From Hymenobacter duratus (lineage in GTDB: Bacteria > Bacteroidota > Bacteroidia > Cytophagales > Hymenobacteraceae), in the NCBI RefSeq assembly GCF_014698995.1, contig NZ_JACWZZ010000004.1:186001-250000 (forward strand): a stretch of 64,000 nucleotides of DNA, read 5' to 3'. Positions 27,477 to 47,905 of this stretch are shown one piece after another (the stretch's first letter is position 1; each line of letters starts with the position of its first letter). The notes beneath the pieces are model-generated. The model was not told the origin of the DNA, did no database searches, and saw nothing but the letters and a program-made list of their open reading frames with translations. The translations under genes and the position numbers were made by a program.

Positions 27477-27549
<73 letters not shown>

Positions 27550-41256: not shown

Positions 41257-42021
41257 TTAGTCAGCCGCGGGTAACAGGTTCCGAATGAAGCCTGCGTAGG
41301 AGTCGCCAAGCGGCAATTCCAGATTTACAGCGAGTCGGCGGCGGAGAGTATGCACGGGTTCCTGGGTGTAGGGGTTGAATCCGTCCTTCAGGTAATCTTC
41401 CCAATAAATTCCCAGACCCCGCTTTTGCCAGCTCGGCAACTCATTATAGTTAATACCGTGCGCGAACAGCAAATCGTGCTTGGTAGCGGTGCGCTGGCCT
41501 TTCACCTGCGCCGTTGCTTCTGCCACGGTGCGGCCCTGTTTGCGCAGCAACCAGTAGCAATGGGCATTCAGGGAGTTACGGCCAGCATCTTCCTGCCGCC
41601 ACCGGAAGTAATCCACCACGTTTTCCCGACGCGGCAACTGGGAAATTCGGCAGTCAAATACCCCTATGTCGCCCAGCAACAGCGAGAATTTGGCGGACGC
41701 CTCCCCCGCCAGTACCGACGTGTACTTGCGCAGCTTACGGCCGAAAGAGTCCTCCGAAGGATGCAGCAGCAGAGAAATTTCGTCGCTTTGCGTATAGCCG
41801 TACACGATTCGGAAACCACATTCCAGCAAGTGCCGGGTGGTTTCAGCCATGTAGTCGCGCATCCGCACATCGAACGGAGCTTCAAACGGATGTACTTCCT
41901 TGGTCAGGCGGGTGAAGCCGCGCCCATCCAGACGGGCCACCAGGTAGAGGCCGGGCAGCGCGCAATGGTCGTGAGCTGTTTCGAATACCCGTAGTCGCGC
42001 GTCGAGGTCGTTAAATTTCAT
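41257..42021 (-). CDS. Thg1-family 3'-5' nucleotidyltransferase (tRNA-His guanylyltransferase-like)
   Basis: Start at ATG 42021 ([14 protein letters not shown]), 254 residues. Thg1 signatures are strong: [14 protein letters not shown] (metal Asp at 32), [14 protein letters not shown] (Asp 80, Glu 81), FDCRISQLP, and [17 protein letters not shown]. Family members add nucleotides in the 3'-5' direction, either G-1 to tRNA-His or, in bacterial Thg1-like proteins, to repair 5'-truncated tRNAs. Bacterial tRNA-His normally has an encoded G-1, so repair is more likely. Its start overlaps the kinase stop by 11 bases (ATGAAATTTAA), so the two are coupled. It lies inside the his operon. Confidence 0.92.
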
Positions 42022-42460
42022 CTTGCCAACTGGTAACGTCAAACGCTTGGTTATCGAGCACCCGCACAAAGTATAGTTGGTCAAACCCCTCAGCGCGGGA
42101 CGGCAGTTCCAGCCGATTGCGGGTGGCCCGAATACCCTTGTCGGGTATTTGTCGCTCCGGCGGACGCTGCTGGTTGCGCACCAGCGCTTCCCCCGCCACC
42201 GACTGAAAGAAGTAGCCGACCACCTCGAATCCCGCGGCCCGGGCCGCCGTTAGGTACACGGCCCGCTCGGCCTGCGTGGGGTTCGTGTTATCTATTACGC
42301 AACGCTGCTGGGTTTCCAGGCACAACTCCAGCAACCGCCGTTCCCGGTGGCGCGTGCGCAGCAGGTCCATGCTGATGCGCACGTGCGTATGGAAAAACCG
42401 CTGTTGGTAAAACGTCGATTTTCCGGTGGCCTGGATTCCGCAGAACAGCACGAGCTGCAT
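42011..42460 (-). CDS. P-loop kinase, polynucleotide-kinase-like, partner of Thg1
   Basis: The protein has 149 residues. The Walker A is GIQATGKSTF at 8-17, then RISMDLLRTR (general-base Asp region) and VIDNTNPTQAER, the lid-side motif seen in T4 Pnkp-type kinases (AAA_33). It probably phosphorylates 5' ends of RNA or a small nucleotide. Coupling with the Thg1 gene suggests preparation of RNA 5' ends before 3'-5' addition. The substrate is inferred. Confidence 0.82.
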   Translation of the reverse strand: MQLVLFCGIQATGKSTFYQQRFFHTHVRISMDLLRTRHRERRLLELCLETQQRCVIDNTNPTQAERAVYLTAARAAGFEVVGYFFQSVAGEALVRNQQRPPERQIPDKGIRATRNRLELPSRAEGFDQLYFVRVLDNQAFDVTSWQDEI

Positions 42461-42471
42461 GATAGGAGTTG

Positions 42472-42882
42472 TTATAAAGGAAGTGTTGGAATCAGGCTGA
42501 CGACTTCTGCAGCTTGGGCTACAAGGAAAGCATTCAGCCCGACCGCCGAATCGAGCGTGCAGGTAAGGTCGGCGTCCTGCTCATCAAATTTCAAACTGAA
42601 GATGACGTTTTGATGACCGAATCCATCAAAGTCGATTTCCTTGATGCCCGTAAACCGAAGCTCGATTTCGCAGTGCCTGGCCTGCAGAAAGTATCCCCGC
42701 TCATCGGTTGCCTTTGTCGTTTCAAAGGCAGCAATCAGAAACGTAACCTTCGGATAGTATCCTGGATTGGCTTCAAAGGTCACCTTTACAACTTCCGCAT
42801 CATGAAAGCCAGGCCAGTAACCGAAATGCTGCACAACTACTTCGGAGTTGACTATTCGGTGAATCGCAGGGTTATCAATCAT
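42472..42882 (-). CDS. Imm50-like immunity protein
   Basis: The protein has 136 residues. QHFGYWPGFHDAEVVKVTFE matches the WPxFHDAEV signature I recall for the Imm50 family, and the remainder alternates strands (EIELRFTGIKEIDFDGFGHQNVIFSLKF). Imm50 proteins are predicted to neutralise polymorphic toxins. No toxin gene is adjacent. The gene lies between hisC and the kinase gene, 11 bases before the latter. Confidence 0.7.
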   Translation of the reverse strand: MIDNPAIHRIVNSEVVVQHFGYWPGFHDAEVVKVTFEANPGYYPKVTFLIAAFETTKATDERGYFLQARHCEIELRFTGIKEIDFDGFGHQNVIFSLKFDEQDADLTCTLDSAVGLNAFLVAQAAEVVSLIPTLPL

Positions 42883-45626: not shown

Positions 45627-46478
45627 CTACGAAATCATTTTCTCAATCGGGAGTACCAGGATGCCTTCAGCACCGACAGCTTTGAGCTGGCTGGTGATGT
45701 GCCAGAAGTCGTCCTCGTTCACTACCGACTGCACCGATACCCAGCCTTCCTCGGCCAGGGGCGTTACCGTCGGCGACTTAATGCCGGGCAGCAGCTGCTT
45801 CACCGCATCCAGGGCCGCCACGGGGGCGTTGAGCAGGATGTACTTGTTGCGGCGGGCGCGGCGCACGGCCTGCATCCGGAACTGCAGCTGCTCGAGCAGC
45901 TCCTTCTTCTCGGCGCTCAGGTTCTGGTTGGCAATGAGCACGGCCTCGGAGCGGAACACGGTTTCCACTTCACGCAGGCCGTTGCCCAGCAGCGTGGAGC
46001 CGCTGCTCACAATATCACAGATGGCCTCGGCCAGCCCGATGCTGGGGGCAATTTCCACCGAGCCGCTGATGGTGTGCAGGTTGGCTTTCACGCCACGTTC
46101 GGTGAGGTACTGACCCAGAATCTGAGGGTACGAGGTGGCAATGTTCACACCCTGCAAATCCTCAATGGAATCGTAGGCGGCGGCGCGGGGCACGGCTAGG
46201 CTCAGGCGGCACTTGCTGAAACCCAGGCCTTCTACCTCCAGGCCGGGAAAACCCGCTTCTACCAGCACGTTCTGGCCCACGATGCCCAGGTCGGCCACGC
46301 CATCCTGCACGTAGCCGGGAATGTCGTCGTCGCGCAGGTAGAGGATTTCGAGGGGGAAGTTGGTGGCTTCGGTTTTGAGCTTGTAGGAAGCCGAGAGGAA
46401 GCTGATGCCGCATTCCCGAATCAGGTTCAGGGAATCTTCGCTTAAGCGGCCCGATTTCTGGATGGCCAGACGGAGCAT
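45627..46478 (-). CDS. hisG: ATP phosphoribosyltransferase, long form
   Basis: The protein has 283 residues, so it includes the C-terminal regulatory domain (VQSVVNEDDFWHITSQLKAVGAEGILVLPIEKM) that binds histidine. The PRPP loop is in EAICDIVSSGSTLLGNGL. It is the committed step and first gene of the operon, 207 bases downstream of a His-rich leader ORF. Feedback inhibition is expected from the domain. Confidence 0.96.
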   Translation of the reverse strand: MLRLAIQKSGRLSEDSLNLIRECGISFLSASYKLKTEATNFPLEILYLRDDDIPGYVQDGVADLGIVGQNVLVEAGFPGLEVEGLGFSKCRLSLAVPRAAAYDSIEDLQGVNIATSYPQILGQYLTERGVKANLHTISGSVEIAPSIGLAEAICDIVSSGSTLLGNGLREVETVFRSEAVLIANQNLSAEKKELLEQLQFRMQAVRRARRNKYILLNAPVAALDAVKQLLPGIKSPTVTPLAEEGWVSVQSVVNEDDFWHITSQLKAVGAEGILVLPIEKMIS

Positions 46479-46679
46479 GTTTCTTTCAATTAGGAATTAA
46501 GAATCAGGAATTAAGAATTGACCGGTGGGGCCAGGGCTTAATTATAATTCGGAACAGGTTGGGGGCAAACGGGGAACAGGACCCGGACGTTGGGAAATGG
46601 CCATGATTTGGCCGGGCCACCACTTTCGGGGGCCGGGGAACCAAGTGCGGTTCGCCCAACGGGACAATATGCGTGTGTT

Positions 46680-46699
46680 ATTCCTCTAAAAAGAGGAAT
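46680..46699 (-). promoter_or_regulatory. Hairpin overlapping the end of the his leader ORF
   Basis: ATTCCTCT (46680-46687) and AGAGGAAT (46692-46699) pair perfectly around AAAA. It covers the last His codon, the stop codon and the next few bases of the leader ORF, so a ribosome stalled at the His codons would keep it open. Longer pairings downstream exist on the minus strand (CGTTGGG with CCCAACG), but I see no classical U-tract terminator. Confidence 0.5.
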
Positions 46700-46811
46700 G
46701 GTACCCGTGCAGATGATGATGCGCCGCGCGCAGCCCAACCGTAGCTCCGCCACTGGCGGAAGCAGCCACGGGGCTGTTGGTGCAGAAGAAAAGCGCGGCC
46801 GATGCGGGCAT
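46686..46811 (-). CDS. Histidine leader peptide (putative attenuator)
   Basis: A 41-codon ORF runs ATG (46809-46811) to TAG (46686-46688) on the his strand. Codons 31-38 read His-His-His-Leu-His-Gly-Tyr-His, five His in eight codons, just before the stop. It begins 19 bases after a TACTTTTG promoter box and is followed by about 200 bases of structured leader before hisG. This is the arrangement of amino-acid-sensing leader peptides: low charged tRNA-His would stall ribosomes on the His run. A conventional His-run would be more continuous. No family model was run. Confidence 0.7.
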   Translation of the reverse strand: MPASAALFFCTNSPVAASASGGATVGLRAAHHHLHGYHSSF

Positions 46812-46829
46812 AGAAGCAGAGTTGCGGGG

Positions 46830-46837
46830 CAAAAGTA
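46830..46837 (-). promoter_or_regulatory. his operon promoter, -7 box TACTTTTG
   Basis: On the minus strand TACTTTTG is an exact TAnnTTTG match. A clean TTG at the ideal -33 distance is not seen (TTT or TTC there). The leader ATG follows after 18 bases, implying a very short untranslated start. Confidence 0.55.
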
Positions 46838-46990
46838 CACGGCAAACGTCCAAAATGAAATTTTATCCGGAAAAATTCTCCGGAACCCGGACCTTTGCCC
46901 TCCCGTTGTGTTTCCAACCAGCGTTTGGCATAATTGTTTCATGCTGCCTGCTGCGGTTGCCCGTCCTGAGTTCTACCCTATTGCGTTGCT

Positions 46991-47905
46991 ATGCGTTTGT
47001 TTGTTCGTCCGCTTGCCATTGCCGTTGCCTGCAGTGCAGTGCTGAGCCTGTTGCCGGGTCCGGCCGCTCATGCCCAGACCACTGCCTCCGCCATGCCGGC
47101 AGCCTCGCTGTTGCCGCTGCCGCAGGCCAGCCCCCACGTGCTGCTCAACCACACCATCGGGCTGTCGGAAGTAACGGTTGACTACCACGCTCCGAGCGTG
47201 CGCAACCGCGTTATCTGGGAAGGACTGGTGCCTTATAATCAGATCTGGCGGGCGGGCGCCAACGAAAACACGGTCATCACGTTTGCGGATACGGTGCGCG
47301 TCAATGGCAAAATGCTGCCCGCGGGCCAGTACTCCTTCTATGTGTTCCCGCGCTCCGACCAGGACTGGGACATGGTCTTTAACCGGGTAACGACGCACTG
47401 GGGGACGGAGAAGTACGATGAGAAGGACGACGTACTGCGCGTTCCGGTAGTGCCGGAAGCCACGGAATTTCACGAAACATTGCTGTACTGGTTTTCGGAT
47501 GTAAAGCCAGGCAGCGCCCATCTAAACCTGAGCTGGGAAAAGAAAACCGTTAGTCTCTTTATCGACACTAATGTACAGGCGCGCGTAGTGGCAGGTATTG
47601 AGAAAGCCGTGGCTCAGCGCCCCGGCGACTGGCAGCTTCTGGCACAGGCCGCCGACTACCTGGTGCAGAACAACCTCAATGCTGAGCGGGCCTTGTATTT
47701 CATAAACGAATCCATCCGCCTCCGCGACGTGTATACCAACAACTGGATCAAGGCTCGCCTGCTGGCTTCTAAGCTCGATTATGACACAGCCATCGTCTAT
47801 GGGCGCAAAGCCATTAAGCTCGGCGACAAGGACGATGAGGCCTTCCGGGCGCAGTTGCCTTCCATGCGGGTTTCGCTGATAGAATGGCAGGGCAAAGCGT
47901 ACTAG
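46991..47905 (+). CDS. DUF2911 domain protein, secreted
   Basis: The protein has 304 residues with a signal peptide (to about AHAQT). Residues about 45-190 are DUF2911: VTVDYHAPSVRNRVIWEGLVPYNQIWRAGANENTVITF and LPAGQYSFYVFPRSDQDWDMVFN. A helical TPR-like tail follows (AADYLVQNNLNAERALYFINESIRLRD). The family is widespread in Bacteroidota and of unknown function, probably periplasmic. It is divergent from the his operon. Confidence 0.9.
   Translation: MRLFVRPLAIAVACSAVLSLLPGPAAHAQTTASAMPAASLLPLPQASPHVLLNHTIGLSEVTVDYHAPSVRNRVIWEGLVPYNQIWRAGANENTVITFADTVRVNGKMLPAGQYSFYVFPRSDQDWDMVFNRVTTHWGTEKYDEKDDVLRVPVVPEATEFHETLLYWFSDVKPGSAHLNLSWEKKTVSLFIDTNVQARVVAGIEKAVAQRPGDWQLLAQAADYLVQNNLNAERALYFINESIRLRDVYTNNWIKARLLASKLDYDTAIVYGRKAIKLGDKDDEAFRAQLPSMRVSLIEWQGKAY

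Follow-up and report, generated by a model that had tools for sequence, protein, structure and literature searches.

The his Operon and Its Leader

The window, that is, the whole 64,000-nt stretch of DNA analyzed here, comes from Hymenobacter and carries a histidine biosynthesis operon on its minus strand. The first gene of the operon, hisG (45627–46478, minus strand), matches NCBIfam TIGR00070 with 182 bits, and hisD, hisC, and hisB lie downstream of it according to NCBIfam matches. After hisB, Pfam matches identify a class-I GATase, two His_biosynth proteins, and a PRA-CH/PRA-PH protein; the names hisH, hisA, hisF, and hisIE were assigned here to these four genes. An earlier note on this DNA had pointed to an unannotated ORF of 41 codons on the his strand upstream of hisG. 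This ORF is present as described at 46686–46811 (minus strand; M...RAAHHHLHGYHSSF*), with its ATG at 46811 and its stop codon TAG at 46688–46686, and encodes the peptide MPASAALFFCTNSPVAASASGGATVGLRAAHHHLHGYHSSF. Five of the eight codons between 46721 and 46698 (HHHLHGYH) specify His and form the putative histidine sensor. The note had counted these codons correctly but had placed them directly before the stop, from which they are separated by Ser-Ser-Phe. The promoter box that it reported ahead of the leader was also found: TACTTTTG, at 46837–46830 on the minus strand, ends 19 bases before the A of the leader ATG and fits the pattern TAnnTTTG, which we take to be the Bacteroidota −7 box. The leader stop codon is separated from hisG by 207 untranslated nt. 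Directly upstream of the biosynthetic operon there is thus a short ORF containing codons for its end product, as is general for attenuators.

Conservation of the Leader in Hymenobacteraceae

The hisG gene is present in 100 of the 101 genomes of the genus. We collected 110 loci, duplicates included (L001–L110), which correspond to 96 distinct upstream sequences in the family. At each locus the leader was defined as the ORF with the densest His window, and shuffled sequences scored by the same rule served as a control. An ORF with at least four His in eight codons, at most 400 nt from hisG, was found in 95 of the 96 distinct sequences. Such a window was found in none of 480 dinucleotide shuffles, in none of the 96 reverse complements, and in only 1 of 124 stretches near trpE, ilvB, and aspartokinase genes. 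Because of this difference, we consider that a chance origin of the leader ORF is excluded by sequence comparison. The earlier note had named the loss of the His codons or of the reading frame in relatives as evidence against a leader. On the contrary, Hymenobacter, Solirubrum, Pontibacter, Rufibacter, and Adhaeribacter all share the leader and its promoter spacing, and the hairpin described below is kept in all five genera except in two Hymenobacter clades, B and C.

The end of the peptide reads HHHLHGYHSSF in the window, HHHHHGHHSSF in other Hymenobacter, and HHFHHSS in many Pontibacter and Rufibacter. In the clades possessing the hairpin, which we named P1, the His codons vary synonymously (231 CAT and 131 CAC). 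The last one, whose AT opens P1, is nevertheless CAT in 76 of 76 sequences, and the Ser codon that follows is TCC in 75 of 76. This invariance points to a constraint on the RNA and not on the peptide.

The TAnnTTTG box lies at a narrow distance from the leader ATG within each group: 17–22 nt in 43 of 46 clade-A relatives, 9–11 nt in 14 of 17 Pontibacter, 8–10 nt in all eight Rufibacter and Adhaeribacter, and 6–8 nt in all 19 sequences of clades B and C. In these last 19 loci, found between L055 and L082, the proximity of the box to the ATG suggests that leader mRNAs may begin at or next to the AUG, and hence that translation could be leaderless.

A Hairpin Enclosing the Leader Stop Codon

An 8-bp hairpin overlapping the end of the ORF had been noticed previously. 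P1 lies at 46699–46680 (minus strand; ATTCCTCT-TTTT-AGAGGAAT) and, moreover, holds the stop codon TAG itself. In the 4.67-Mb genome of origin, the exact word CATTCCTC-N3-8-GAGGAA has a single site, at hisG. It was found in 23 of 41 genomes of the genus, always at hisG, with three additional sites elsewhere. Among 81 loci from the P1 clades and their near relatives, at least six of the seven core pairs are conserved in 80 and all seven in 71. The spacer between the 7-bp arms measures 4, 5, 6, or 7 nt. Leaving L117 aside, we observed four changes within the core, three producing U-G wobbles and one a mismatch. The stop codon is just behind P1, not inside it, in the Sol clade (six sequences), in Adhaeribacter (three), and in L088. 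In clades B and C, other structures follow the His codons in place of P1. In two sequences of family f57, the place of P1 is taken by a stem whose sequence differs but whose arms are still complementary (GGCUCUC/GAGAGCC); many f22 leaders can form GUGC/GCAC with the stop codon in the loop, and one f4 member AUCGCC/GGCGAU.

Folding z scores around the stop codon average −3.8 in clade A (n = 30 distinct sequences) and −4.4 in Pontibacter (n = 15), as compared with −0.97 in f22 (n = 23) and −0.01 in leaders followed by a terminator (n = 47). As identical stretches were dropped in several tests, n for clade A is 46, 30, or 29. Base pairing that spans the stop codon is stronger than in shuffles (P = 0.05) in 58 of 112 leaders without a terminator versus 0 of 47 terminator-type leaders, a contrast for which Fisher values overstate independence since the sequences are related. 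Outside Hymenobacteraceae, such pairing is significant in 10 of 38 sequences, and it is weak in single sequences of f22 (5/23), f3 (0/3), and f4 (0/4), so the claim of a wider distribution of stop-codon hairpins relies on fewer and weaker cases. In the folding model, the RNA structure beside the His codons depends on the position of the ribosome: a ribosome placed on the first His codon leaves P1 with a probability of 0.97, whereas one placed on the last His codon or the stop brings it to 0, these zero values following from the imposed ribosome block.

Nine nucleotides after P1 begins a conserved ATATTG box (46665–46670, minus strand). The ATAT motif follows the hairpin at a spacing of 8–9 nt in 45 of 46 sequences of clade A and of 9 nt in 15 of 17 Pontibacter, while 162 of 4,200 shuffled tails contain it at any position; this count leaves out the 10 of 84 sequences in which the 3′ arm was unmatched (six Sol, three Adhaeribacter, and L088). 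The box is absent from genus g3 of family f2 (0/3) and from f43 (0/1). Its distance from P1 presumably resembles the geometry of a hairpin-stabilized pause.

Farther downstream, a structured stretch (46588–46661, minus strand) consists of an outer stem CGTTGGG/CCCAACG (46661–46655 with 46594–46588) enclosing a hairpin H-a (46653–46638) and two GC-rich hairpins. The two pairs with the strongest covariation in the clade-A alignment belong to H-a. A tRNA-like fold of this stretch had been suspected by eye, and the Rfam tRNA model gives no match there. The idea that the P1 3′ arm (GAGGAAT) pairs with ATTCCT repeats close to the start of hisG was likewise considered and was dropped by eye, without a count, because several relatives have ATTACT or other words at this place. 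In two Adhaeribacter loci (L085 and L104), the P1 3′ arm has another potential partner, a ATTATTCCTC that lies downstream and precedes a short U run; this pairing might serve as an alternative terminator.

Search for Terminators and Comparison with trp and thr Leaders

We scored candidate terminators with a formula made here, which adds a U-tail term to the stem energy. The cut-off of 16.5 was chosen after inspection of the scores, so the 49/49 obtained for the terminator group is by selection. No canonical intrinsic terminator, that is, a GC hairpin followed by a U tract, was detected before hisG in the window, where the best score is 8.5. Similarly, none of the 77 his leaders of the P1 clades (46 clade A, 6 Sol, 17 Pontibacter, 5 Rufibacter, and 3 Adhaeribacter) reaches 16.5. 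The earlier note had seen no obvious U-tract terminator and had doubted that the output was the usual one; both remarks hold for the lineage, although Hymenobacter trp leaders do have a terminator. The mean best score is 12.1 in clade A against 9.8 in shuffles, and 3 of the 46 sequences beat all 20 of their shuffles (2.2 expected). In Pontibacter the mean is 10.4 against 4.1, indicating that some weak terminator-like hairpin is present there, and 1 of 17 sequences beats all shuffles. As both means are somewhat above those of shuffles, weak terminator-like hairpins may exist in the two groups. Some clade-A relatives, such as L008 (score 13.5), have a GGCC hairpin followed by UUUUUCC. L111, a clade-A Hymenobacter locus outside the 77, scores 17.2 and was kept out of the terminator group. 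The cut-off is reached in 2 of 11 clade-B and 2 of 8 clade-C sequences (4/19 together). Other his leaders devoid of a terminator belong to f22 (24 sequences), f4 (4), and genus g3 of f2 (3).

Trp-rich leaders (WWW or WW) were found upstream of trpE in the genome of origin and in 15 relatives (L230 and L220–L235). A canonical terminator follows in 16 of 16 genomes, with scores from 18.5 to 22.3. The trp leader of the genome of origin (L230; MIFSMTQQAWWWPYGESGRDNLCVR) has a terminator score of 20.5, versus 8.5 for its his leader. No Rfam match was obtained in the two trp loci scanned, the Bacteroid-trp model RF01692 not being reached at gathering score. In six of ten Hymenobacter loci (L252–L256 and L258), a leader ending in a Thr-rich run (e.g., TTITTTR) was matched upstream of a long aspartokinase-containing gene; terminator scores there range from 17.6 to 22.8. 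The pattern used detected no Thr leader at the four other aspartokinase loci. Upstream of ilvB, no Ile/Val/Leu-rich leader was found (0/8); one listing of pattern hits abounds in noise from coding frames. In 9 of 17 Hymenobacter genomes (the genome of origin and 8 of 16 relatives), no acetolactate synthase exceeded the family cut-off; in G003 it is in two pieces. Branched-chain amino acid auxotrophy is possible in the genomes lacking this enzyme.

Two Designs of his Leaders in Bacteroidota

In a sample of the phylum, hisG was present in 171 of 198 genomes, from which 109 upstream regions (L111–L219, the first two from Hymenobacter) were examined. A leader with at least three His in eight codons is found at 86 of the 109 loci and none at 23. 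When restricted to long-type hisG loci, including the two from Hymenobacter, 79 of 93 have at least four His in eight codons, versus 1 of 465 shuffles. His leaders thus occur in many other families of the phylum. Their distribution within the order is patchy: 47 of 56 further loci have no leader with at least three His in eight codons, and a looser look at this order-wide sample, without the requirement for a start codon, added few leaders. A canonical terminator follows the leader at 52 of the 109 loci (51 without Hymenobacter L111), and 34 have a leader without one. This final tally is the only one in which L196–L198 (f20) were scored (19.9, 14.2, and 19.2); L199 has no leader. Judged from these sequences, there are two designs in the phylum, a leader followed by a canonical terminator and a leader without terminator.

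For 43 leaders of the first design, the transcript was folded up to the terminator 5′ arm with a ribosome footprint on either the first His codon or the stop. The mean probability that the terminator 5′ arm pairs upstream, in an antiterminator, is 0.87 for the stalled ribosome and 0.32 for the ribosome at the stop (n = 43). The shift exceeds 0.2 in the expected direction in 39 of 43 and is reversed in none, and the antiterminator complementarity beats shuffles (P = 0.05) in 29 of 43. This procedure, from which L111 was left out, was used in place of the equilibrium folding of whole transcripts to the terminator end, which separates the two ribosome states in just 11 of 44 cases (L111 included; none reversed). 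By their anatomy, and as modeled here, the terminator-type leaders are classical his attenuators.

Rfam 15 gave no match to a his leader at gathering score, either in the whole window or in 17 further his loci. In the region 46300–47000, nothing matched even at E values up to 10, including the His_leader model. No T-box match was obtained in the window at gathering score, where the only Rfam match is a tRNA at 27477–27549.

A Putative Histidine Attenuator without Terminator

Transcripts between the leader and hisG contain more C than G. The skew is 0.25 in the window, compared with 0.05 (SD 0.16) for 30 other upstream regions of the window, a difference of about 1.25 SD. It amounts to 0.23 in clade A, 0.49 in f22, and −0.01 in terminator-type leaders, and is positive in all ten terminator-less groups (0.09–0.49). 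The untranslated stretch 46479–46587 (minus strand) is a candidate Rho-loading region; the skew agrees with termination by Rho but is only suggestive. The stretch after the leader is partly structured, which does not favor Rho.

The conserved His codons, the adjoining hairpin, and the terminator-type leaders of relatives together provide good support for a leader that senses histidine supply through ribosome stalling. A similar leader feeding a terminator and a stall-dependent antiterminator in relatives points to its purpose. The proposal of the earlier note, a his leader attenuator of Bacteroidota, is thus supported, attenuation itself being deduced from comparative anatomy. The leader, its conservation, P1, and the missing canonical terminator are read from the sequence, and the dependence of P1 on ribosome position from folding models; the regulation, its sign, and its output are what we infer. 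The best reading of the output is that it is not a canonical terminator; perhaps it depends on Rho. We consider it probable that the locus is a ribosome-mediated histidine attenuator, the output of which would most likely be Rho-dependent termination, with P1 and the AUAU box as a pause or Rho-opposing element. Transcription would start just upstream of the leader gene, and a ribosome would read the His codons. With ample charged tRNA-His, the ribosome would reach the stop codon, melt P1, and leave, and RNA polymerase would then be halted before hisG, most likely by Rho acting within the C-rich untranslated stretch. Under histidine shortage, the ribosome would wait on the His codons, P1 could form, and transcription would proceed into the his operon, P1 together with the AUAU box either pausing the polymerase or opposing Rho. 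The modeled folding of P1 does not by itself indicate how this hairpin would oppose termination.

The output could alternatively be a degenerate intrinsic terminator within a classical attenuator. CCCGUUGGG would pair with the His-Gly codons (CACGGG) or, upon stalling, with the downstream CCCAACG, and a short GC hairpin with a short U run would halt the polymerase. These two pairings do exchange with ribosome position in the window: CACGGG:CCCGUUG has a probability of 0.63 with the ribosome at the stop and 0.03 at the first His codon, against 0.01 and 0.73 for the outer stem CGUUGGG:CCCAACG. The exchange is hardly seen across the clade, where the outer stem is weak (mean probability of about 0.1, pairs forming in 28–38 of 42–46 sequences). 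The scores of L008, L111, the four sequences of clades B and C, and Pontibacter as a whole are in line with a residual terminator, but sequences beating all their shuffles are about as frequent as expected in clade A, and Pontibacter has a single one. We regard this explanation as rather unlikely. Still less probable is a control of translation or mRNA stability, the leader ribosome altering the accessibility of the hisG start or the exposure to a nuclease while transcription is not stopped. It would agree with the lack of a detected terminator and with the position of hisG in f22 and f4, about 70–110 nt past the leader stop. In the window, this distance is 207 nt, and in all four minimum-energy structures computed for it the hisG-proximal stretch folds on itself without involving P1. 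Moreover, transcription terminators follow comparable leaders in many relatives.

P1 is also a near-perfect palindrome, almost invariant over several genera and unique in its genome, as would be expected of an inverted-repeat DNA operator bound by a repressor, the His codons inside it serving elsewhere or being incidental. The variable spacer between its arms, the three U-G wobbles of the transcribed strand among its four core changes, the fourth being a mismatch, and the different but complementary stem of the two f57 sequences all argue against this role, which we judge very improbable. As for a functionless ORF, its missing annotation is all that could be said in its favor; conservation against shuffles, reverse complements, and other genes refutes it and leaves it next to no credence. 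More generally, the preferred attenuator might represent a second class, defined by a His leader without intrinsic terminator. Its stop-codon hairpin would be a switch formed only when the ribosome is held upstream, and would be read by the polymerase or by Rho, perhaps via the AUAU box. Within Bacteroidota, such a class would have taken the place of the terminator design on more than one occasion, and it would coexist in one genome with a classical trp attenuator. We put this generalization forward tentatively, at somewhat less than even odds.

Relation to Known Leaders

The classical leader attenuators of gammaproteobacterial his operons correspond to the Rfam family His_leader (RF00514). 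Like them, the window has a short ORF with a run of His codons before hisG and a predicted stall-dependent RNA folding. Unlike them, it has no Rfam match, its lineage lacks a U-tract terminator, and the stop codon of its leader lies within a hairpin. TnaC responds to free Trp through arrest at its stop codon, whereas the his leader would rely on codon starvation. Bacteroidetes his leaders may already be listed in a 2010 comparative survey (Lopatovskaya and others).

In Flavobacterium psychrophilum, leader-peptide attenuation has been suggested for amino acid operons, and a conserved structured 5′ element was reported upstream of hisG, such elements having no Rfam hit (PMC9723704). This element concerns the same phylum and the same gene as the window, and the relevant passages of that report give no His-leader anatomy (PMC9723704). 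For comparison, families f5 to f8, which belong to the same class as the organism of the window, are of the terminator type in our analysis, unlike the window. Bacteroid-trp RNA (RF01692) is described as a trp element of Bacteroidetes (PMC2864571). Like the his leader, the Hymenobacter trp leader has codons for the product amino acid; it keeps a strong intrinsic terminator (16/16), which the his leader does not have. In Mycobacterium, cys operons have leaders with Cys codons and no conserved terminator, which the authors compare with the Rho-dependent tna operon of Escherichia coli (PMC1262725). As in the window, the amino acid codons are near the leader stop, a conserved terminator hairpin is missing, and pyrimidine motifs are present, and Rho-dependent termination was proposed (PMC1262725); a conserved hairpin enclosing the stop codon distinguishes the his leader. 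In Bacteroides thetaiotaomicron, sORFs are described in general terms as reminiscent of leader peptides (PMC7366714), and attenuation comes up for Salmonella and E. coli in a survey of his genes in the superphylum (PMC8305728). In searches of openly licensed literature, judged by titles, the beginnings of abstracts, and selected passages, we found no description of a terminator-less His leader with a stop-codon hairpin.

Histidine leader peptides, best known from enterobacteria, therefore appear to be common in Bacteroidota, where Rfam 15 matches none in the loci scanned. The data indicate that a single phylum couples one kind of sensor to two different outputs. As one genome combines a trp attenuator of textbook anatomy with a his leader devoid of terminator, it offers a clean comparison for asking by what means ribosome stalling is read when no terminator hairpin is present, and whether amino acid control in this phylum makes use of Rho.

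A Thg1-Like Gene in the his Operon

In two Hymenobacter genomes, hisG matches are split in three pieces (G009:C1:3883033-3883879 and G090:C2:2402004-2402850), so the gene looks broken there. Inside the his operon of the window, between hisC and hisB, Pfam detects a gene of the Thg1/Thg1C type (tRNA-His guanylyltransferase-like), accompanied by a small AAA_33 (polynucleotide-kinase-like) gene and an Imm50 gene (41257–42024, with 42011–42460 and 42472–42882, minus strand; NCBIfam/Pfam). Thg1 matches were found in 16 of 61 Hymenobacter genomes. In 12 of these 16, the match is located about 3.0–3.8 kb downstream of hisG on the same strand, so the Thg1-like gene may be under the control of the His leader.
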